Shown here: piece by piece, positions 26,011 to 43,023 of the stretch
How positions within the stretch are numbered: position 1 is the first letter of the stretch
Layout of the letters: each line of letters opens with the position of its first letter
Source: Nocardioides salarius
Lineage (GTDB): Bacteria; Actinomycetota; Actinomycetes; Propionibacteriales; Nocardioidaceae
NCBI RefSeq assembly: GCF_016907435.1
Contig: NZ_JAFBBZ010000001.1
Span: forward strand, 1,612,001 to 1,676,000
Length of the DNA: 64,000 nt
Reading direction: 5' to 3'
Program-made: the position numbers and the translations under genes
Notes under the pieces: model-generated
The model's database searches: none
The model's input: only the letters and a program-made list of their open reading frames with translations
Told to the model about the DNA's origin: nothing

Positions 26011-27104
26011 CAGCGGCTGACCAGCTCGTTCCACTCCTGCAGCCACTCGTCGCGGTTCGCGTCGATCTCGTCGGGGTCCACCGACCAGGGGTCGGAGGGA
26101 CGCTCGGTGAGGTCGGCCCACTCCGCGGGCAGCTCGGTGCCCTCGACGGCCGGGTAGACGTACATCGACGAGGGCAGCGCCTCCTGCACCGCGGGCGAGA
26201 CCAGCCACTCGACGACCGCGCGGGCGCCCTCGGGGTTGTCGGCGCCGCGCAGCACGCCGGCGTACTCGACCTGCTCGTAGCAGGTGTCGAGCAGCGCCCG
26301 GGTCGTCGTGCCACCCTCGCCGTCGACGGTGAAGGCGGGCGAGGAGTCGTAGGAGGTCACGACCGGCCGGTCGCCCTTGCCGCCGCCCTGGGTGAAGTCG
26401 ACCTGGTAGGCGTCCTCCCAGCCCTTGACGACCTTGGCGTCGTTGTCGAGCAGGTCCTCCCAGTAGTCCTGCCAGTCGTCGCCGTACGCCGCGATCGTGG
26501 TGAGCAGGAACGCGAAGCCGGGCGAGCTGGTGGTGGCGCCGGGGGTGACGAAGAGGCCCTCGTAGGCCGGGTCGGTGAGGTCGTCGAGGGTCTCGGGCGC
26601 ATCGAGGTCGCGCTCGGCGAACCAGGTGGTGTCGACGTTGACGCACACGTTGCCGGTGTCGACGGCGACCAGGGCGCCCTCGTCGTCGCCGGGCAGCGCG
26701 TTCTCCTCGACCCCGGCGGGGGTCTCGAGGTCGGTCGGCTCGAAGACGTCGGCCTCGAGGGCGCGGGAGCCGAAGGTGTTGTCGACGCCGAAGGCGACGT
26801 CGCCGATCGGGCTGTCGGTGTTGAGCACCAGCTGGCTGGTCAGCGCGCCCGCGTCGCCGCCGGCGCGCTGCTCGAGGTCGTAGCCGCTCTCGCGCTCGAA
26901 GTCCGCCACGAGCTCCTCGGGCAGGTAGAAGCTGTCGTGGGTGACGAGCACGACGGTGCCGCCCGCCTCGTCACCGCCCCCGGCCGGGTCGGAGGCCGAC
27001 TCGTCGTCGCCCGTGCCGACCAGCGAGCAGCCGCTCACGGCCAGCGCCAGGACGGCGGCCACCGCGGTCCTCGTCGGGTGGATGTGCATGCGCATGCGTC
27101 GCAT
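26010..27104 (-). CDS. thiB: Thiamine ABC transporter, substrate-binding lipoprotein
   Basis: 364 residues from ATG 27104, with GGGAG placed 5 nt upstream; that same GGGAG is the last element of the TPP riboswitch. The lipoprotein signal has the lipobox LAVSGC. The mature protein starts after an acidic linker with TVVLVTHDSFYLPEELVADF. GDVAFGVDNTFGSRALEADV and TSSPGFAFLLTTIAAYGDDW are ThiB-like (tbpA/ThiB family) motifs that contact the thiamine phosphate. It binds thiamine, TMP or TPP outside the membrane and delivers it to ThiPQ. Confidence 0.93.
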   Translation of the reverse strand: MRRMRMHIHPTRTAVAAVLALAVSGCSLVGTGDDESASDPAGGGDEAGGTVVLVTHDSFYLPEELVADFERESGYDLEQRAGGDAGALTSQLVLNTDSPIGDVAFGVDNTFGSRALEADVFEPTDLETPAGVEENALPGDDEGALVAVDTGNVCVNVDTTWFAERDLDAPETLDDLTDPAYEGLFVTPGATTSSPGFAFLLTTIAAYGDDWQDYWEDLLDNDAKVVKGWEDAYQVDFTQGGGKGDRPVVTSYDSSPAFTVDGEGGTTTRALLDTCYEQVEYAGVLRGADNPEGARAVVEWLVSPAVQEALPSSMYVYPAVEGTELPAEWADLTERPSDPWSVDPDEIDANRDEWLQEWNELVSR

Positions 27105-27109
27105 CTGGA

Positions 27110-27204
27110 CTCCCTTCGCCGGTCTTAACCGGAGCAGGTTCGGAGGGTCTGCGGCGTGTCCGCACTCTCAGCACCACCCCGGCCGGGCCGGGCGGGTGCT
27201 CCCC
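27110..27204 (-). ncRNA. TPP riboswitch (thi box)
   Basis: On the minus strand it opens with GGGGAGCACC, followed by a variable GC-rich arm, then GGTGGTGCTGAGAGTGCGGA (the CUGAGA pyrimidine-sensor box), GACCCTCCGAACCTGCTCCGG (the CCGAACCUG box) and finally ACCGGCGAAGGGAG. This is the conserved thi-box order. The terminal GGGAG is also the Shine-Dalgarno of thiB, 5 nt before its ATG, so TPP binding should block ribosome access directly (translational control). No separate intrinsic terminator fits between aptamer and start. Confidence 0.95.
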
Positions 27205-27314
27205 TGTCTGTCGTCGTCGAGGGTATCCGGCGGTGTCGAGGGGCGTGGCCCCCGGTCGGCTGCCCGGTCGGCTCCGCCCGTGCAGGTGGGCGGGCGCATG
27301 GTGGGATGGGCGGC

Positions 27315-33832: not shown

Positions 33833-36800
33833 ATGAGCGACCTGCACCAGCCCACCCACCCCGTCCGCCTCGTCACGGCCTCGAGCCTGTTCGACGGCCA
33901 CGACGCCTCGATCAACATCATGAGGCGGATCTTCCAGAGCCAGGGCTGCGAGGTGATCCACCTCGGGCACAACCGCTCCGTGGCCGAGGTCGTCGACGCC
34001 GCGCTCGAGGAGGACGTGCAGGGCGTCGCCGTGTCGTCGTACCAGGGCGGGCACATCGAGTACTTCGAGTACCTCGTGGAGTCGCTGCGCGAGCGCGGCG
34101 CCGGGCACGTCAAGGTCGTCGGCGGGGGCGGCGGCGTGATCGTGCGCGACGAGATCCAGCGCCTGCGCGACTCCGGGGTCACCATCTTCTCGCCCGAGGA
34201 CGGGCAGCGCATGGGCCTGGTCGGGATGATCAACAGCGTCGTCGCCGACTGCGACCACGACCTGTGGGAGGCCGGCTCGGTCACCGCCGAGCAGGTGCTC
34301 AGCGGCGACCGCTTCGCCGTGGCCCGCGCCATCACCGGGGCCGAGCTGGGCCGCCTCGGCGGCGAGCTCGAGACCATCCAGCAGGCCGCCGCGCGCAGCC
34401 ACGCCCCCGTGCTGGGCATCACCGGCACCGGTGGCTCGGGCAAGTCCTCGCTCACCGACGAGCTGGTGCGCCGCTTCCGCGTCGACCAGCAGGACAAGCT
34501 GCGCGTGGCCGTGATCGCCGTCGACCCGACCCGTCGCAAGGGTGGCGGGGCGCTGCTCGGCGACCGGATCCGGATGAACAGCCTCGACGGCGACCGGGTC
34601 TTCTTCCGCTCCCTGGCCACCCGCGGCGCCCACGAGCTGCCCGACCACCTGCCGCACGTCATCGACGTCGCCAAGGCCGCCGGCTTCGACCTCGTCATCG
34701 TCGAGACCCCCGGCATCGGCCAGGGCGACGCCGCGATCGTGCCGTTCGTCGACACCGCGATGTACGTGATGACGCCCGAGTTCGGCGCCGCCAGCCAGCT
34801 CGAGAAGATCGACATGCTCGACTTCGCCGACACCGTGGCCATCAACAAGTTCGAGCGCCGCGGCGCCAAGGACGCGCTGCGCGACGTCGGGCGCCAGCTG
34901 GTGCGCAACCGCGAGGCGTTCGGCCAGCAGCCCGACCAGATGCCGGTCTTCGGCACCAGCGCCGCCACCTTCAACGACGACGGCGTCACCGCGCTCTACC
35001 AGCACCTGCGCGGCATCCTGGCCGAGAAGGGCCTGCCCGCCCAGGAGGGCACCCTGGCCCCCGTCGAGGTCAAGCACTCCTCCGGCATCCGCGCCGTGGT
35101 GCCCCAGGAGCGCGTGCGCTACCTGGCCGAGATCACCGAGACCGTCCGCGGCTACCACCAGCGCACCGAGCAGCTCGTCGAGGCGGCCCGCCGGGTCCAG
35201 CGCCTCGAGGCCGTCACCGCCGAGCTCGAGGACCACGACGCCGGCGACGTGCCGGCCCTGCTCGAGAAGGCCCGGCGCCAGCTCGACCCCGAGGTCGCCG
35301 AGCAGCTCGAGGCCTGGCCCTCGGTCGTGGAGTCCTACTCCGGCGACGAGCAGGTCGTGGTGGTGCGCGACAAGGAGATCCACACCGCGCTGACCCGCGA
35401 GTCGCTCAGCGGCAACAAGATCCCCCGCGTCGCGCTGCCGTCGTACGACGACGCCGGCGAGCTGGTGCGCTTCTGGCGCCGCGAGAACCTGCCCGGGCTC
35501 TTCCCCTTCACCGCCGGCGTCTTCAAGTTCAAGCGCGACGGTGAGGACCCGGCGCGGATGTTCGCCGGCGAGGGCGACCCCGCGCGCACCAACCGCCGCT
35601 TCAAGATCCTCTCGGCCGACGGCGACGCCAAGCGGCTCTCGACCGCCTTCGACTCCGTGACCCTCTACGGCCGCGACCCCGACGAGCGCCCCGACATCTA
35701 CGGCAAGGTCGGCACCTCCGGCGTCTCGGTGGCCACGCTCGACGACATGAAGGTGCTCTACGACGGCTTCGACCTCGTCGCGCCGAGCACCTCGGTCTCG
35801 ATGACCATCAACGGCCCGGCGCCCACGGTGCTGGCCTTCTTCCTCAACACCGTCATCGACCAGCAGGTCGACGCCTTCCGCGAGCGCGAGGGCCGCGAGC
35901 CCGACGCCGACGAGACCGCGATGCTCGCCGCCCACGCCGTGGCCAGCGTGCGCGGCACGGTGCAGGCCGACATCCTCAAGGAGGACCAGGGCCAGAACAC
36001 CTGCCTGTTCTCCACCGAGTTCTCGCTGCGGATGATGGCCGACATCCAGGAGTGGTTCATCCAGAAGCAGGTGCGCAACTTCTACTCGGTCTCCATCTCC
36101 GGCTACCACATCGCCGAGGCCGGGGCGAACCCCATCAGCCAGCTCGCCTTCACCCTGGCCAACGGCTTCACCTACGTCGAGGCCTACCTCGCGCGGGGCA
36201 TGGACATCGACGACTTCGCGCCCAACCTGTCGTTCTTCTTCTCCAACGGCATGGATCCCGAGTACTCCGTCATCGGCCGCGTCGCGCGCCGGATCTGGGC
36301 GGTGGCGATGCGCGACAGGTACGGCGCCAGCGAGCGCTCGCAGAAGCTGAAGTACCACGTGCAGACGAGCGGTCGCTCCCTGCACGCGCAGGAGATGGAC
36401 TTCAACGACATCCGCACCACGCTGCAGGCGCTGATCGCGATCTACGACAACGCCAACTCGCTGCACACCAACGCCTACGACGAGGCGGTCACGACGCCGG
36501 GCGAGGAGTCGGTGCGCCGCGCGCTGGCCATCCAGCTCATCATCAACCGCGAGTGGGGCCTGGCGATGAACGAGAACCCGCTGCAGGGCTCGTTCATCAT
36601 CGACCAGCTCACCGACCTCGTCGAGGAGGCCGTGCTCGCCGAGTTCGACCGCATCAACGAGCGCGGCGGCGTGCTCGGCGCGATGGAGACCGGCTACCAG
36701 CGCGGGCGCATCCAGGACGAGTCGATGCTCTACGAGCACCGCAAGCACGACGGCTCGCTGCCGATCGTGGGCGTCAACACCTTCCTCAAGGAGGTCGGCG

Positions 36801-37054
36801 ACGACGCCACTCCCCAGCACGTCGAGCTGGCCCGCGCCACCGACGAGGAGAAGGAGTCGCAGCTGCGCCGGGTGCACGAGTTCCAGCGCGCCCACGAGGC
36901 CGAGGCCGCCGAGGCGCTGGCCCGCCTCAAGGCAGCGGCCACCTCCGGCGAGAACGTCTTCGCGGTCCTGATGGACGCCGCCCGCGTCTGCTCGCTGGGC
37001 CAGGTCACCGAGGCCTTCTTCGAGGTCGGCGGGGCCTACCGCCGCAACGTCTGA
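33833..37054 (+). CDS. icmF: Fused isobutyryl-CoA mutase with G-protein chaperone (IcmF)
   Basis: 1073 residues from ATG 33833 (GGAG about 10 nt upstream), the normal length for IcmF. Domain order: B12-binding (SSLFDGHDASINIMRRIFQS, lower-ligand His in DGHDAS near residue 22), MeaB-like GTPase with P-loop GITGTGGSGKSSLTDEL near residue 197 and NKFER near 342, then the acyl-CoA mutase barrel (LSFFFSNGMDPEYSVIGR, HVQTSGRSLHAQEMDFNDIR). With adenosylcobalamin it interconverts isobutyryl- and n-butyryl-CoA (or related branched acyl-CoAs). The palindromic operator upstream suggests repression. Its TGA stop is the first triplet of a 22-bp repeat array. Confidence 0.94.
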   Translation: MSDLHQPTHPVRLVTASSLFDGHDASINIMRRIFQSQGCEVIHLGHNRSVAEVVDAALEEDVQGVAVSSYQGGHIEYFEYLVESLRERGAGHVKVVGGGGGVIVRDEIQRLRDSGVTIFSPEDGQRMGLVGMINSVVADCDHDLWEAGSVTAEQVLSGDRFAVARAITGAELGRLGGELETIQQAAARSHAPVLGITGTGGSGKSSLTDELVRRFRVDQQDKLRVAVIAVDPTRRKGGGALLGDRIRMNSLDGDRVFFRSLATRGAHELPDHLPHVIDVAKAAGFDLVIVETPGIGQGDAAIVPFVDTAMYVMTPEFGAASQLEKIDMLDFADTVAINKFERRGAKDALRDVGRQLVRNREAFGQQPDQMPVFGTSAATFNDDGVTALYQHLRGILAEKGLPAQEGTLAPVEVKHSSGIRAVVPQERVRYLAEITETVRGYHQRTEQLVEAARRVQRLEAVTAELEDHDAGDVPALLEKARRQLDPEVAEQLEAWPSVVESYSGDEQVVVVRDKEIHTALTRESLSGNKIPRVALPSYDDAGELVRFWRRENLPGLFPFTAGVFKFKRDGEDPARMFAGEGDPARTNRRFKILSADGDAKRLSTAFDSVTLYGRDPDERPDIYGKVGTSGVSVATLDDMKVLYDGFDLVAPSTSVSMTINGPAPTVLAFFLNTVIDQQVDAFREREGREPDADETAMLAAHAVASVRGTVQADILKEDQGQNTCLFSTEFSLRMMADIQEWFIQKQVRNFYSVSISGYHIAEAGANPISQLAFTLANGFTYVEAYLARGMDIDDFAPNLSFFFSNGMDPEYSVIGRVARRIWAVAMRDRYGASERSQKLKYHVQTSGRSLHAQEMDFNDIRTTLQALIAIYDNANSLHTNAYDEAVTTPGEESVRRALAIQLIINREWGLAMNENPLQGSFIIDQLTDLVEEAVLAEFDRINERGGVLGAMETGYQRGRIQDESMLYEHRKHDGSLPIVGVNTFLKEVGDDATPQHVELARATDEEKESQLRRVHEFQRAHEAEAAEALARLKAAATSGENVFAVLMDAARVCSLGQVTEAFFEVGGAYRRNV

Positions 37055-37270
37055 CCCGGCCCATACTTCCCGCCGAGACGGCCCAAACTTCACCCTGACC
37101 CGGCCCATACTTCGCGTCGAGTCGGCCCGAACCTTCGGCCGGCCGGTTCGGGCCGGGTCGGTGGGAGATTCAGGCCGGGTCAGGGTGAGATCTGGGACGG
37201 GTCGGCGGGAGAATTGGGACGGGTCAGGGTGAGATCTGGGCCGGGTCGGCGGGAGATTTGGGACGGGTCG
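37052..37270. repeat. 22-bp tandem repeat array 2, two inverted halves
   Basis: Left half: four units read as TGACCCGGCCCATACTTC-like on the plus strand (37052-37073, 37074-37095, 37096-37117, 37118-37139). Right half: the same unit inverted, one partial unit then five full 22-bp units from 37161 to 37270. The halves meet at a CCGAACC/GGTTCGG inverted centre near 37128-37151. Right-half units alternate GGGTGAGATCTGGG and GCGGGAGAWTTGGG, so growth was by 44-bp dimers. The first triplet of the array is the icmF stop codon. Confidence 0.88.
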
Positions 37271-37285
37271 GGGAGGGTGGGGCAC

Positions 37286-38035
37286 ATGGACGACCTGGGG
37301 ACGACGTACGACGGCCCGCGCCCGGCGCGGCGGGTGGTCTCGCTGGTGCCGTCGCTGACCGAGGCGCTGGTCTCGGTCGAGCGCTCGGCGGTGGTGGGGG
37401 CGACCGACTGGTGCATCCGGCCCACCGACCTCGAGACCACGCGGGTGCGGGGCACCAAGAACCCCGACCTCGCCGCGGTCCGGGCGCTGGAGCCCGACGT
37501 GGTGGTGGCGAACAAGGAGGAGAACCGCGAGCTCGACGTGCGCCGGCTGCGGGACTCTGGGGTACGGGTCTGGGTCACCGACATCGAGACCGTGCCCGGC
37601 GCCGTGGCGTCGATGGAGCGGCTGCTCGACGGCATCGGCTGGCAGCGTCCCGACTGGCTGGCCCGGGCCCGCGAGCTGTGGTGCGGGCCGCTGCCCGAGG
37701 TGACCAGGCGGGTGGTGGTGCCGATCTGGCGCGACCCGTGGATGGTCGTCGGCCCGGCCACCTTCACCAGCGACCTGTGCCGCCGGCTGGGGTGGCAGAC
37801 GCTGCCGGACACCGGTGACGCCGCCGAGGGCCGCTACCCGTCGCTCGACGTGGCGCAGATCGACGCCCTCGGCGCCGACGCCGTGCTGCTGCCCGACGAG
37901 CCCTACGAGTTCACGGCCACCGACGGGCCCGAGGCGCTGCGCTCGCCCTGCGAGCTCGTCGACGGGCGGCTGCTGACCTGGTACGGGCCCTCGCTGCTCG
38001 ACGCGCGCACCTCGGTGGAGCGCCGCGGCGCCTGA
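37286..38035 (+). CDS. BtuF/TroA-like metal-receptor protein without signal peptide
   Basis: 249 residues from ATG 37286, with GGGAGGG upstream. It has the helical-backbone periplasmic-binding fold of cobalamin/haem/ferrisiderophore receptors: RRVVSLVPSLTEALVSVERS, VVGATDWCIRPTDLETTRVR, KNPDLAAVRALEPDVVVANK, then VPGAVASMERLLDGIG. No signal peptide or lipobox is present, so it is cytoplasmic, unlike BtuF. Cytosolic members are often annotated cobalamin-binding protein, and position after the B12-dependent mutase fits, but ligand binding is unproven. Its last 133 bp overlap the convergent acyltransferase gene. Confidence 0.75.
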   Translation: MDDLGTTYDGPRPARRVVSLVPSLTEALVSVERSAVVGATDWCIRPTDLETTRVRGTKNPDLAAVRALEPDVVVANKEENRELDVRRLRDSGVRVWVTDIETVPGAVASMERLLDGIGWQRPDWLARARELWCGPLPEVTRRVVVPIWRDPWMVVGPATFTSDLCRRLGWQTLPDTGDAAEGRYPSLDVAQIDALGADAVLLPDEPYEFTATDGPEALRSPCELVDGRLLTWYGPSLLDARTSVERRGA

Positions 38036-39210: not shown

Positions 39211-40848
39211 TCAGCCCTCGTCGGACCGTGGCCGCACCAGCGCGGTGGCCGTGGGACGCCCGCGCAGCACGGTCGACCCGGCGTCCTCCCACCGGCCGGC
39301 CTCGTCGCCCGCCCCGGCCCGCTCGGCGGCCTGCACCGTCTCGCGGGTGCTGAGCACCCGCGGCCGCTCGGCCTTGGCGAGCTCGGTGAGCCGGGCCGCG
39401 GCGTTGACCGCGTCGCCGATCACCGTGTACTCGAGGCGGCTGCGCGTGCCGACGTTGCCGGCCACGGTCGGACCGGTGCACACGCCGATGCCGGCGGCGA
39501 CGTCGGGCCGCTCGGCGCGCAGCCGCTCGTCGATGCGGCGCGCGGCCGCCAGCGCCGCGGCGGCGTGGCCCGGCTGGTCGACCGGAGCGCCGAAGACCGC
39601 GAGGACCGCGTCGCCGATGAACTTGTTGACCAGGCCGCCGGCCCGGTCGACCTCGTCGACGACCACCTCGAAGAACGCGTTGAGGACCGCGACCACCTCG
39701 GCCGGCTCGCGCTCGGCGGCCATCGCCGTCGAGCCCACGAGGTCGACGAAGACCACGCTGACCTCGCGGGTCTCGCCGCCCAGCCGCACCTCGCCGCCGC
39801 TCGCGGCCCGGGCGACCTCCCGGCCCACGTGGCGACCGAACACGTCGCGCAGGTGCTCGCGCTCGCGCAGGCCCTCGGCCATCCGGTTGAACCCGGCCTG
39901 CAGCTCGCCGAGCTCGGTGGCGTCGTAGACCGCGACCCGCTGGTCGAGGTCGCCGCGCTCGACCTCCAGCAGCGCCAGGCGGACCGAGGTCAGGGGCGCC
40001 ACGACCGACCGGGCGTTGAGCACGGTGACCAGGAGCCCGACCACCAGCACCACTCCCCCGAGCACCAGCACCTCGACGGCCAGGCGGCGGGTGCTCACGG
40101 AGTCGCCGACCAGCACCAGCAGCGCCGCCAGCGACAGCCCGACGACCGGGGCCGCGGTGCCGAGCAGCCAGAACATCAGCATCCGCCCACCGACGCCCAG
40201 GCCGCGAGGGCGCCGCCCGTCCTCCCTGGCGGTGCCGCCGGCCAGGGCCCGGGCCGCGACCGGGCGCAGCGCGAACTCGGAGAACAGGTAGGCGACCGCG
40301 CAGGCGACGACGCCGCCGATGGCCACCGTCAGCCCGGTGCTGAGCGCGCGCTCGGGCTGCAGCCACAGCGCCAGGGCGACGAAGAGCGCGTCGGCGACCA
40401 GCCAGAGCACACCGGCCAGCACGGTGAGCCGCAGCGGCACCCGCAGCACCCGGCGCCGCTCCCGCGGGGTCGGGTCGGCGCCGCCGAGGGCCCACCGCAG
40501 GCTGCGCAGCGCGACCCGGGTGCCCCAGGCGGTGCCGACCACGAGCGCGACACCGACGTAGACCGGCACCGCGACCGCCAGGGCCAGCCAGGTCGCGCCC
40601 TCCGGCGCCGGGGCGGTGACCACGAAGAGCGAGAGCAGCAGCACGACACCGGCGCCGATGCCGTGGGTGAGCGTCAGCGCCAGGGTCAGGAGCACCTGCA
40701 CCCGCACCCGCAGCCGGCGCGTCGACTGCGTCTCGGTGCCGAGCAGCCACGAGCCGAACGGCGTACGCCGCGCGCGGGAGCGGCGTACGGACCGGTCTGC
40801 CGCGGCCGGGGCCGGGTCCTGGGGGAAGTCCTCCACGCCGCGCATCAT
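39211..40848 (-). CDS. Membrane class III adenylate/guanylate cyclase with HAMP domain
   Basis: 545 residues from ATG 40848 (ATG 40845 equally possible). An N-terminal cytoplasmic stretch is followed by about six membrane helices, a HAMP linker (RSVVAPLTSVRLALLEVERG ... ELGELQAGFNRMAEGLRERE) and the cyclase domain: VSVVFVDLVGSTAMAAEREP with the metal Asp, GGLVNKFIGDAVLAVFGAPV with substrate Lys and second Asp, and TRSRLEYTVIGDAVNAAARL. It makes cAMP (or cGMP) and resembles mycobacterial Rv3645/Rv1318c cyclases. It is divergent from the sigma-factor gene with 131 bp between. Confidence 0.88.
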   Translation of the reverse strand: MMRGVEDFPQDPAPAAADRSVRRSRARRTPFGSWLLGTETQSTRRLRVRVQVLLTLALTLTHGIGAGVVLLLSLFVVTAPAPEGATWLALAVAVPVYVGVALVVGTAWGTRVALRSLRWALGGADPTPRERRRVLRVPLRLTVLAGVLWLVADALFVALALWLQPERALSTGLTVAIGGVVACAVAYLFSEFALRPVAARALAGGTAREDGRRPRGLGVGGRMLMFWLLGTAAPVVGLSLAALLVLVGDSVSTRRLAVEVLVLGGVVLVVGLLVTVLNARSVVAPLTSVRLALLEVERGDLDQRVAVYDATELGELQAGFNRMAEGLREREHLRDVFGRHVGREVARAASGGEVRLGGETREVSVVFVDLVGSTAMAAEREPAEVVAVLNAFFEVVVDEVDRAGGLVNKFIGDAVLAVFGAPVDQPGHAAAALAAARRIDERLRAERPDVAAGIGVCTGPTVAGNVGTRSRLEYTVIGDAVNAAARLTELAKAERPRVLSTRETVQAAERAGAGDEAGRWEDAGSTVLRGRPTATALVRPRSDEG

Positions 40849-40979
40849 CGCGCACGCGCCCGAAGGGGTGAGGTTGTAGAAGGTTTGTGCAATGTTGTGT
40901 AGATTCTTGTTCAGGTCAGCGGACCTCCCCCGCAGGACACCGAGCAGCACATCGAGCAGGACACGGAAGGCAGCAGGAC

Positions 40980-41792
40980 ATGACCAGCACCCTCGCCGAG
41001 CGACGCACCACCTTCCGCGCCTCCGACGCCGAGCGCGCCGCGGCCACCACGAGCCTGCTGGCCCGCGCCGCGGCCACCACCGACGAGGCCGAGCGGCGCG
41101 CCTGCCACGACGAGGTCGTGCGGGTGAACATGCGCGTCGCCGAGGCGGTGGCGCGGCGCTACGCCCGGCGCGGCGTGCCGGTCGAGGACCTCACCCAGAT
41201 CGCGTACCTGGCGCTGGTGCGGGCCGTGCGCCGCTACGACGCCGCGCACGAGCGCGACCTGCTGGCCTACGCCGTGCCGACCATCGAGGGCGACATCCGC
41301 CGGCACTTCCGCGACCACGGCTGGACCATCCGGCCGCCGCGCGACGTGCAGCGCGCCCACACGCGCCTGGTGCGCACCGGCGCCAGCCTCGACCGCTACG
41401 ACACCGGCGCGCTCAACGACCTCGCCTCCCAGGTCGAGGAGCCGGTCGAGGTGGTGCGCGAGGCGCTGTCGGCCCGCACCTGCTTCTCGCTGCTCTCCCT
41501 CGACCAGCCCATCGGCTCGGGCGGCCCGGGCTCGGGCGACGGGGAGGGCCCCACCCCCGACGTCGCCGACGTGGCCGACCGCTCGCAGGAGCAGGCCGAG
41601 GCGCGGCTGCTGGTGCGCCCGCTCGTCGCGTCGTTGGGCGAGCGCGAGCAGCGGATCCTGCGCTGGCGCTTCGTCGAGGAGCTCTCGCAGCGCGAGATCG
41701 CCGAGCGGCTGGGCCTCTCGCAGATCCAGGTCTCGCGCCTGCTGCAGCGGGTGCTCACCCAGATGCGGGGCGCGCTCGCCGAGGCCGTCTGA
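40980..41792 (+). CDS. SigB/SigF-family sigma factor
   Basis: 270 residues from ATG 40980 (GGAAGGCAGCAGGA just upstream); the frame is open further upstream but that part is not sigma-like. Region 2: EVVRVNMRVAEAVARRYARR, EDLTQIAYLALVRAVRRYDA, AVPTIEGDIRRHFRDHGWTI. Region 4: SLGEREQRILRWRFVEELSQ then REIAERLGLSQIQVSRLLQR. These are the hallmarks of the stress/development SigB-SigF-SigG group. No anti-sigma or anti-anti-sigma gene is adjacent, unlike most members. TAGATT at 40900-40905 is a possible -10 with an 80-nt leader. The likely role is a stress or light regulon with the adjacent CarH-like gene (inference). Confidence 0.88.
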   Translation: MTSTLAERRTTFRASDAERAAATTSLLARAAATTDEAERRACHDEVVRVNMRVAEAVARRYARRGVPVEDLTQIAYLALVRAVRRYDAAHERDLLAYAVPTIEGDIRRHFRDHGWTIRPPRDVQRAHTRLVRTGASLDRYDTGALNDLASQVEEPVEVVREALSARTCFSLLSLDQPIGSGGPGSGDGEGPTPDVADVADRSQEQAEARLLVRPLVASLGEREQRILRWRFVEELSQREIAERLGLSQIQVSRLLQRVLTQMRGALAEAV

Positions 41793-41879
41793 GCCCTCGC
41801 GGACGCCGCGCGGCACCCTCCGGGAGATGCTGACGAGCCCCCGCACGCCGTGCAGGGTTCGTCTAAACTCCGGGGCACC

Positions 41880-42836
41880 ATGGCCTCCCGACCCGCACAG
41901 CGCTGGCGCATCGGCGTGCTGGCCTCGCGCGTCGGCGTCTCCGAGACACTGCTGCGCGCCTGGGAGCTGCGCTATGGGCTGCTGAGCCCCACCCGCAGCG
42001 ACGCCGGCTACCGCCTCTACGGCCCCGAGGACGAGCGCCGCGCCCGCGCCATGCAGGACGCCCGGCGCCGCGGCGTGCCCGCCGGCCAGGCCGCCGCCGA
42101 GGTGCTGGCCGCCGAGCGCTCCGGCAGCCTGCTGCCCGGGGCGCCCGCCCCGCGCTACGCCACCAGCGGCGCCCTCGACGTCTCCCGCACCCTCGACGAG
42201 CTGCGCGCGGCGATGGTCGCCTACGACGTCAGCTCGATGCACGCCGCGCTCGACCGCGTGCTCGCCGACGTGTCGGCCGAGACGGCCATCAAGGACGTGC
42301 TGCTGCCCTTCCTGGCCGGCGTGGGCGACGGGTGGGCCCGTGGCGACTTCGACGTGGCCGACGAGCACTTCGCCAGCGACCTGGTCAGGGCCAGGCTCGC
42401 GGCGCTCTCGATCGCGCCGGGCTCGCGCAGCGGCCCGCTGGCGCTGCTGGCCTGCCCGCCCCGCGAGCAGCACGACATCGCCCTCAAGGCATTCGAGGTG
42501 GTGCTGCTGCGCGCCGGCTGGCGCACCCGGTTCCTGGGCCCGCGCACCCCCGTGGCCTCCCTCGAGGTCGCCGTCGGGGTCATCGCGCCCGACCTGCTCG
42601 TCCTGGCCGGCACCGGTCCCGGCGCCTTCGACGTGGCCGACGCCGACCGCGCGAGCGTCGAGCGGCTCTCCGGGGCCACGCGCGTGGTGATCGCGGGCGC
42701 CGCCGCCGACGAGGGAGCCGCGCTGCGGTGGGGCGCCGAGGTGCTCGAGGGCGACCCCGTCACCGCTGCCCGCTCGCTGGTCGGCACCGGCCGCCGAGCG
42801 GCCCGGGAGGGCACCGAGGACGACGCGCGGCCCTGA
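41880..42836 (+). CDS. CarH/LitR-like MerR regulator with B12-binding domain
   Basis: 318 residues from ATG 41880; TAAACT ends 10 nt upstream and no ribosome site is visible. The N-terminal MerR wing-helix is WRIGVLASRVGVSETLLRAW ... YGLLSPTRSDAGYRLYG. The middle has a four-helix cobalamin-cap with W-x9-EH (GWARGDFDVADEHFASDL), the motif known from adenosylcobalamin photoreceptors CarH/LitR. The Rossmann B12 domain carries the lower-ligand His in PPREQHDIALKAF. Position W+1 is Ala, where Thermus CarH has a second cobalt-ligating His. It is probably a light-sensitive repressor; targets are unknown. It follows the sigma gene by 87 bp. Confidence 0.82.
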   Translation: MASRPAQRWRIGVLASRVGVSETLLRAWELRYGLLSPTRSDAGYRLYGPEDERRARAMQDARRRGVPAGQAAAEVLAAERSGSLLPGAPAPRYATSGALDVSRTLDELRAAMVAYDVSSMHAALDRVLADVSAETAIKDVLLPFLAGVGDGWARGDFDVADEHFASDLVRARLAALSIAPGSRSGPLALLACPPREQHDIALKAFEVVLLRAGWRTRFLGPRTPVASLEVAVGVIAPDLLVLAGTGPGAFDVADADRASVERLSGATRVVIAGAAADEGAALRWGAEVLEGDPVTAARSLVGTGRRAAREGTEDDARP

Positions 42837-43023
42837 GGCGGCAACGTGCCCATGCACGCCGGCTTCAAACCTCCGCCCACCCGGACGGGTGAAAAGACCG
42901 GCGAAGACGGTTGAACTCTGCACCAAGCGGACATCACTGATGTGTAGGCAGTCCGGCGCACGACGTCGCGGCGCCGCCCCAGACACAGCTCATCCGTCAC
43001 AGCCGAACCCAGAGGTGTTGAGA

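Follow-up and report, generated by a model that had tools for sequence, protein, structure and literature searches.

The locus analyzed here raises the question which signal is read, and which output is controlled, by a CarH/LitR-like MerR regulator with a cobalamin-binding domain that is encoded next to a SigB/SigF-like sigma factor. It is situated in a window of 64,000 nucleotides of Nocardioides salarius, i.e., positions 1612001-1676000 of a 4.47-Mb single-contig genome. An earlier reading of this DNA (the original prediction) had proposed a possible B12-based light switch acting with the sigma factor. We consider it fairly probable that an AdoCbl-dependent and probably light-released MerR repressor gates the SigB/SigF-like sigma factor together with an atypical response regulator. 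Beyond the original prediction, the locus contains a third gene and repeats at the sigma promoter (Table 1), and the histidine that the MerR protein lacks is absent in other family members too.

Table 1. Features of the locus and its surroundings; positions refer to the window.
Feature	Position	Strand	Remarks
SigB/SigF/SigG-like sigma factor, 270 aa	40980..41792	+	Sigma70_r2, Sigma70_r4; TIGR02980 E 5.8e-56, under cut-off
MerR regulator of CarH/LitR-like type, 318 aa, with cobalamin-binding domain	41880..42836	+	W152, E162, H163, H198; Ala153 at the place of TtCarH His132
NarL/LuxR-type response regulator, 230 aa	43024..43716	+	Completes the trio; phospho-Asp replaced by Glu (alignment reading)
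HAMP-cyclase gene, divergent from the sigma gene	39211..40809	-	Matched adjoining the trio in 10/13 genomes
Candidate MerR operator at the sigma promoter	40874..40917	+	11-bp units TTGTAGAAGGT, TTGTGCAATGT, TGTGTAGATTC, TTGTTCAGGTC; CarH-operator core
Putative -10 of the sigma gene, TAGATT	40900..40905	+	Within the repeats; read by eye
Second candidate MerR operator (weak), at the merR promoter	41848..41869	+	CCGTGCAGGGT, TCGTCTAAACT; related pair in 9/13 genomes, looser pattern
Putative -10 of merR, TAAACT	41864-41869	+	In the second unit; sequence reading
Box before the sigma operator, like a BldM half-site	40858..40871	+	GCCCGAAGGGGTGA; 11/14 letters of the BldM group I site
Palindrome preceding the regulator gene	42877..42892	+	CCACCCGGACGGGTGA; agrees with the BldM group I site (PMC4125116) in 13/14 letters
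Putative regulator promoter, GTTGAA-N12-CGGACA	42910..42933	+	Alternative-sigma-like; 12/13 genomes, looser pattern from these sites
IcmF (fused isobutyryl-CoA mutase)	33833-37054	+	AdoCbl enzyme
TroA-like helical-backbone receptor protein	37214-38035	+	Follows IcmF
TPP riboswitch	27094-27215	-	No other Rfam match of the window reaches the gathering score

Conservation of the Gene Trio

The closest named relative of the MerR gene was found in Nocardioides cremeus (89% identical), a species that likewise has the trio (L033), and 18 of the 215 genomes of the genus contain a match at an E-value of 1e-36 or better. All genomes with a match of about 1e-100 or better, thirteen including the one analyzed here, keep the order and the strand of the sigma, MerR and regulator genes (13/13), and for this reason the pairing of sigma factor and MerR regulator is regarded as more than chance. 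The five more distant matches and L037 (L numbers denote loci and stretches examined) encode the MerR protein with no sigma gene in the stretch examined. As read from these sequences, the conserved trio of sigma factor, MerR protein and NarL-type regulator is new. The genes flanking it vary among the thirteen loci, as judged by five genes that were searched for (the cyclase, an acyltransferase, the TroA-like protein and two ABC genes), and in L104 and L105 the trio is kept without any of the five. In two of the thirteen relatives, L101 and L108, both single-contig assemblies, the sigma gene is distributed over two frames, which may be due either to sequencing error or to decay. A gene of about 100 aa lies between the sigma and MerR genes in L034 (4477-4785, reverse strand), adjoining the repeats of the MerR promoter, and by eye a small opposite-strand gene is present at this place also in L035 and L036; in N. 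salarius the gap comprises 87 bases.

Fold and Cobalamin-Domain Motifs of the MerR Protein

The MerR protein contains a MerR-type DNA-binding domain (Pfam MerR_1, E 5.6e-10; MerR, E 1.1e-8) and the four-helix B12 cap (PF02607, B12-binding_2, E 5.1e-14), and the Rossmann part scores under the Pfam cut-off (PF02310, B12-binding, 14.8 vs. 32.1). The complete domain of cap and Rossmann fold was assigned by PF02607 together with the fit of a model to the cobalamin domain of Thermus thermophilus CarH (TtCarH). This AlphaFold model, built from 17 sequences (mean pLDDT 86), has TtCarH as its best match in Foldseek and fits the TtCarH domain (5c8a_C) with Z 23.6 and 1.7 Å over 195 residues, compared to Z 20.8-22.4 for photocobilins and CtMerR and 18.1 or less for other corrinoid proteins. 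A sequence search against solved structures likewise returned TtLitR/CarH first (E 2.6e-22) and CtMerR lower (2.7e-16).

W-x9-EH, an EQH ligand and an Ala replacing the second His after the Trp had been predicted, and all of them can be read in the protein: G-D-G-W152-A153-RGDFDVAD-E162-H163 followed by E196-Q-H198. W152, E162 and H163 form the W-x9-EH motif of the adenosyl pocket, E-x-H is present as well, and Trp152, Glu162, His163, Glu196 and His198 are invariant in 17/17 aligned sequences, own protein included. The classic motif D/ExHx2G/P-SxT/V-GG is kept in part, with E-x-H followed by Ala, A-x-T and AG. The SignatureFinder set is incomplete too, GxxW, EH and GxxxP being present and the Gly of GxxH being Arg. 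The best named model is the CarH equivalog of NCBIfam, NF052513, with 108.1 bits under a cut-off of 400. Because neither the curated cut-off is reached nor the full classic motif present, the protein is named CarH-like here and kept out of CarH proper. Other MerR/B12 matches in the genome were rejected as orthologues (29-38% identity). The same genome encodes one more protein whose MerR domain is CarH-like (L149, 5988-6881, reverse strand), with a TGTnnA pair of 12-bp spacing upstream.

The Missing Histidine and the Nature of the Signal

Ala153 of the MerR protein aligns with His132 of TtCarH, which becomes a cobalt ligand after light. The TtCarH variant H132A was described to stay mostly tetrameric in light, and an earlier report of disassembly is mentioned in the same paper (2023, PMC10442372). 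CtMerR has an Arg at this place and was reported to change from tetramer to monomer upon illumination (2024, PMC11796333). In all of the 19 Nocardioides-type sequences, own protein included, the residue is Ala, Glu, Gln or Ser, and among 23 distinct sequences with the longer motif, an unfair sample seeded by the own MerR and mostly from Nocardioides, only TtCarH has the His. Three plasmid-borne Streptomyces relatives have Glu, one of which adjoins an ECF-like sigma gene. The original prediction placed too much weight on the Ala: as CtMerR is reported to switch in light with no His and as the His is missing in 19/19 sequences, Ala153 neither proves nor disproves light sensing, and its use as a disproof was rejected. 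The more worrying departure, judged by the residues, is the relaxed tail-binding part of the domain, with Ser222 to Ala, GG to AG, Gly180 to Ala and Gly174 to Arg.

Light is the presumed signal, and two other signals have to be weighed against it. One explanation, which we regard as unlikely although it deserves attention, is that the AdoCbl-loaded MerR protein represses the sigma gene as a sensor of the coenzyme-B12 level (or of corrinoid or redox state), so that loss of B12 and not light would lead to derepression. The behavior of TtCarH H132A would suit a protein of this type, and IcmF and the TroA-like protein are encoded just upstream. However, the TroA-like and ABC-transporter genes were unmatched near the trio in L104, L105, L107 and L108, CtMerR, with no His at this place, was reported to be switched by light (PMC11796333), and the invariant W-x9-EH was described to contact the adenosyl group and to be incomplete in the B12-independent CarA (PMC9304148). 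The TPP riboswitch of Table 1 is an observation apart from this.

Improbable is a CarA-like, cobalamin-independent repressor that would receive its signal from a protein partner, e.g., the cyclase pathway or an antirepressor. Such a reading could draw on the relaxed tail-binding motif and the sub-threshold Pfam B12-binding score, but none of the 17 sequences departs from E-x-H or W-x9-EH, CarA is described as having no such Trp (PMC9304148), and the cyclase gene was unmatched adjoining the trio in L102, L104 and L105.

As to the targets of a light signal, the original prediction had noted no carotenoid gene near the locus, in agreement with the finding that the only phytoene-synthase-type match (PF00494) of the genome lies at 779444, about 870 kb away. 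This carotenoid stretch (L148) was found by reading to contain crtI-, crtB- and crtE-like genes. A pair of operator units could be identified neither in the gap before the crtE-like gene of L148, nor around the crtB-like gene, nor in the 3.6-kb stretch around the one photolyase-type match of the genome. A carotenoid switch was rejected, and no classical light-response target was found at the crtB-like and photolyase stretches.

Candidate Operators at the Sigma and merR Promoters

CarH operators were described as tandem 11-bp repeats of nAnnTnnACAn, i.e., nTGTnnAnnTn on the other strand (PMC9304148, PMC8156234). The TnnACA core in 11-bp register is also found at the sigma promoter, where units 1, 2 and 4 have TGTnnA in register and the core of unit 3 is one base off. 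TGTNNA-N5-TGTNNA occurs a single time in the 64-kb window, at 40875. In 11 of the 13 loci it is located in the stretch of about 250 nt that precedes the approximate start of the sigma gene, and the remaining two, L107 and L108, have the core pair at 10-bp spacing. In 3715 control windows the pattern was found 14 times, all 14 hits representing three sites in the gap between the MerR and regulator genes of L106, L107 and L108, which are thus the genomes (3/13) with a core pair at that place; in L107 and L108 a small gene may be present in this gap, which measures 467-468 nt. For the longer pattern TGTNNAN5TGTNNAN4TGTNNA, a search of the 4.47-Mb genome gave a single match, also when one mismatch was allowed, and none in the control, its spacing being taken from these loci so that only the TGTnnA core is independent.

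Shuffle tests were scored with the full Thermus consensus. Four units upstream of the own sigma gene reach 14/20, a value obtained by 0/150 shuffles, and p is 0.027 for two units and 0.053 for three; the TtCarH promoter as control reaches 15/15 for three units. Two units upstream of sigma gave p 0.033 or less in 8/13 genomes, with L083, L084 and L085 missed as the stretch left the site out and L087 and L088 having 10-bp spacing. In the trio genomes, none of the merR promoters reached p 0.05 with two units (0/13; own p 0.30), and a weaker YGTnnA-like pair is present in 9/13 by a looser pattern. The few low shuffle values at regulator promoters (own p 0.020, other strand) were not read as operators, L106 excepted. 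Similar repeats were found upstream of MerR genes that have no sigma gene (two units at p 0.02 or less in 4/5 genomes, L089-L092 and not L037), and this occurrence links the motif to the MerR proteins of this family and not to the sigma gene. That the repeats belong to another protein, e.g., of BldC type, and that the MerR protein does not control sigma is highly improbable, since, although BldC likewise binds direct repeats and the MerR operator is here predicted from sequence, the BldC consensus AATTxxxx(C) with 9-bp sites does not resemble TGTnnA per 11 bp (PMC5859096), and since the repeats also stand before those sigma-less MerR genes. In L110 and L111, where sigma is absent, the repeats upstream of MerR adjoin a divergent gene that, from the reading of its start, resembles one for a membrane protein of DUF378 type, and on a Caballeronia plasmid (L098, 3394-3648) a MerR gene is located near an annotated DUF378 gene.

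The operator of the sigma promoter was not among the repeats reported by Tandem Repeats Finder. The pattern GTNNAANGTNYGTNNAANGT, drawn from the sites and therefore partly circular, has one genome match at 0-1 mismatch, and at up to two mismatches 11 matches were found vs. 9 in the control, so that no regulon was derived from it. Three YGTNNA in exact 11-bp register have one genome match, at 1247378 and distinct from the sigma site, and none in the control. The CarH-type repeats at the sigma promoter, which overlap the putative -10, are new, and control of sigma by a MerR operator is predicted with good support from the sequence. The original prediction stands in part: its assignment to the B12 photoreceptors by homology is supported, and so is the partnership with the sigma factor, for which the conserved CarH-type repeats now provide DNA evidence, with light itself staying the presumed signal.

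The Sigma Factor and the Atypical Response Regulator

The models that fit the sigma factor best are SigB/SigF/SigG (TIGR02980) and SigF, in line with the predicted SigB/SigF-type partner, the score of 189.7 bits being under the TIGR02980 cut-off of 234.35. The statement that no anti-sigma gene adjoins the sigma gene was confirmed for the RsbW type: the genome has 31 HATPase_c_2 matches, none of which is within the 64-kb window, and the nearest is located at genome position 1685693, about 31 kb beyond the MerR gene.

In the receiver domain of the regulator, which scores under the cut-off of Pfam Response_reg, the acidic pair and the lysine are kept, and by alignment reading a Glu takes the place of the phospho-Asp in 13/13 genomes. 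Therefore, control of the regulator looks transcriptional; judged from these residues, control by phosphorylation seems unlikely, and among the neighboring genes scanned no kinase gene was found. The protein has the features of an atypical regulator, i.e., a NarL-type orphan with impaired receiver as in BldM/WhiI. With 11 or more of 14 letters, the published BldM site is present before the regulator gene in 10/13 genomes, before the sigma gene in 4/13 and in 23 of 1446 control windows. A GCCCGAAGGGGTGA-like box precedes the sigma operator in 12/13 genomes when the search pattern is derived from the sites themselves. With one mismatch allowed at most, the BldM-like MCCCGNANGGGTGA has 67 genome matches vs. 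20 control matches, a count that may hold matches on both strands, the pattern being nearly palindromic, and perhaps terminators; no regulon is claimed from it. Two similar genes with the word PYVGRRRA, at about 3530 of L139 and 3204 of L141 (genome 3506029 and 3186703), have a BldM-like box near the likely start.

A sequence of the form [AG]TTGAA-N10-13-GGA before the regulator gene in 12/13 genomes resembles an alternative-sigma promoter. TTGAA-N11,13-CGGAYA was found twice in the genome, once at this promoter, and once in the control, which does not indicate a wider sigma regulon.

Proposed Mechanism

The sequence contains the gene trio, the B12-type fold, the adenosyl-pocket and axial-ligand residues and the operator-like repeats at the sigma promoter, and from these we infer the following light-released circuit. 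In the dark and with coenzyme B12 bound, the CarH-like repressor would cover the sigma promoter by sitting on its tandem 11-bp repeats, and perhaps also its own promoter. Light would break the Co-C bond, upon which the oligomer would dissociate or, having no His132 ligand, loosen. The freed promoter would then allow production of the SigB/SigF-like sigma factor, which, or in some relatives the same operator, would direct transcription of the adjacent pseudo-receiver regulator, and this regulator may feed back through the BldM-like boxes. In favor of the circuit, AdoCbl supply is indicated by a cob(I)alamin adenosyltransferase gene in the genome and by the AdoCbl enzyme IcmF. The sign of control could differ, because Streptomyces LitR was described as promoting litS transcription in light (PMC12705666). 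A more far-reaching reading, tentative and with a chance clearly short of even, is that the system is related to the developmental sigma(WhiG)-WhiI/BldM module and gated by light: B12 photolysis with no bis-His ligation would free a group-3 sigma factor that has no adjoining RsbW-type partner, this would lead to a phosphorylation-independent regulator with feedback at BldM sites, and green or blue light would commit Nocardioides to a stress or developmental programme.

Relation to Known Systems and Biological Meaning

With CarH/LitR of T. thermophilus (class I LitR) the system has in common the MerR domain, the B12 fold, W-x9-EH, E-x-H and the tandem 11-bp TGTnnA repeats. It differs in the Ala for His132, in the relaxed tail motif and in a sequence identity of 31% over the B12 domain; in addition, Thermus carH adjoins a phytoene/squalene synthase gene, phr and ldrP, whereas the MerR gene studied here adjoins a sigma gene. 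CtMerR of Chloracidobacterium (8JBS/8JBT) is also a B12 MerR protein with no His132 (Arg there, Ala here), with 28% identity over 210 residues.

Streptomyces LitR-LitS is likewise a B12-binding MerR protein acting through a sigma factor, and the logic of photoreceptor, sigma amplifier and regulon, proposed for the system described here, would be shared (PMC12705666). LitS, however, is an ECF sigma factor, as named in the title of a 2005 paper, that serves the crtE promoter, and the sigma factor of the trio is SigB/SigF-like; the cited part of the LitR-LitS description names no pseudo-receiver regulator (PMC12705666), whereas the trio has one, and no carotenoid target was found for it. Streptomyces sigma(WhiG)-WhiI/BldM shares the step from a developmental sigma factor to an orphan atypical response regulator and the BldM-type palindrome (PMC4125116). 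The likeness to WhiI/BldM is taken from published descriptions, in which the WhiI pocket has no Lys and one Asp is missing, compared to Glu for Asp here, and in which the module has no B12 regulator, in contrast to the B12-type MerR protein of the trio (PMC4125116). In Bacillus and Listeria, light reaches a SigB-type sigma factor via the LOV receptors YtvA and Lmo0799 and the stressosome (PMC8508746, PMC12627116). This flavin-receptor route was described to run via RsbT-RsbW at the protein level, whereas the circuit proposed here would act by repression of the sigma gene. In a literature search that covered its sources in part, no report of a B12-MerR protein controlling a SigB/SigF-type sigma factor was found.

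The rarity of the operator in the genome makes the circuit easy to test, and a natural family with no His at the 132 place (19/19) is suited to test the disputed need for bis-His ligation. If the proposed circuit holds true, CarH/LitR control would no longer be confined to pigment genes but would include a stress-type sigma factor together with an atypical response regulator, B12-dependent repression of a sigma gene would constitute a further light route to SigB-type sigma factors, and light could switch on a whole gene programme.
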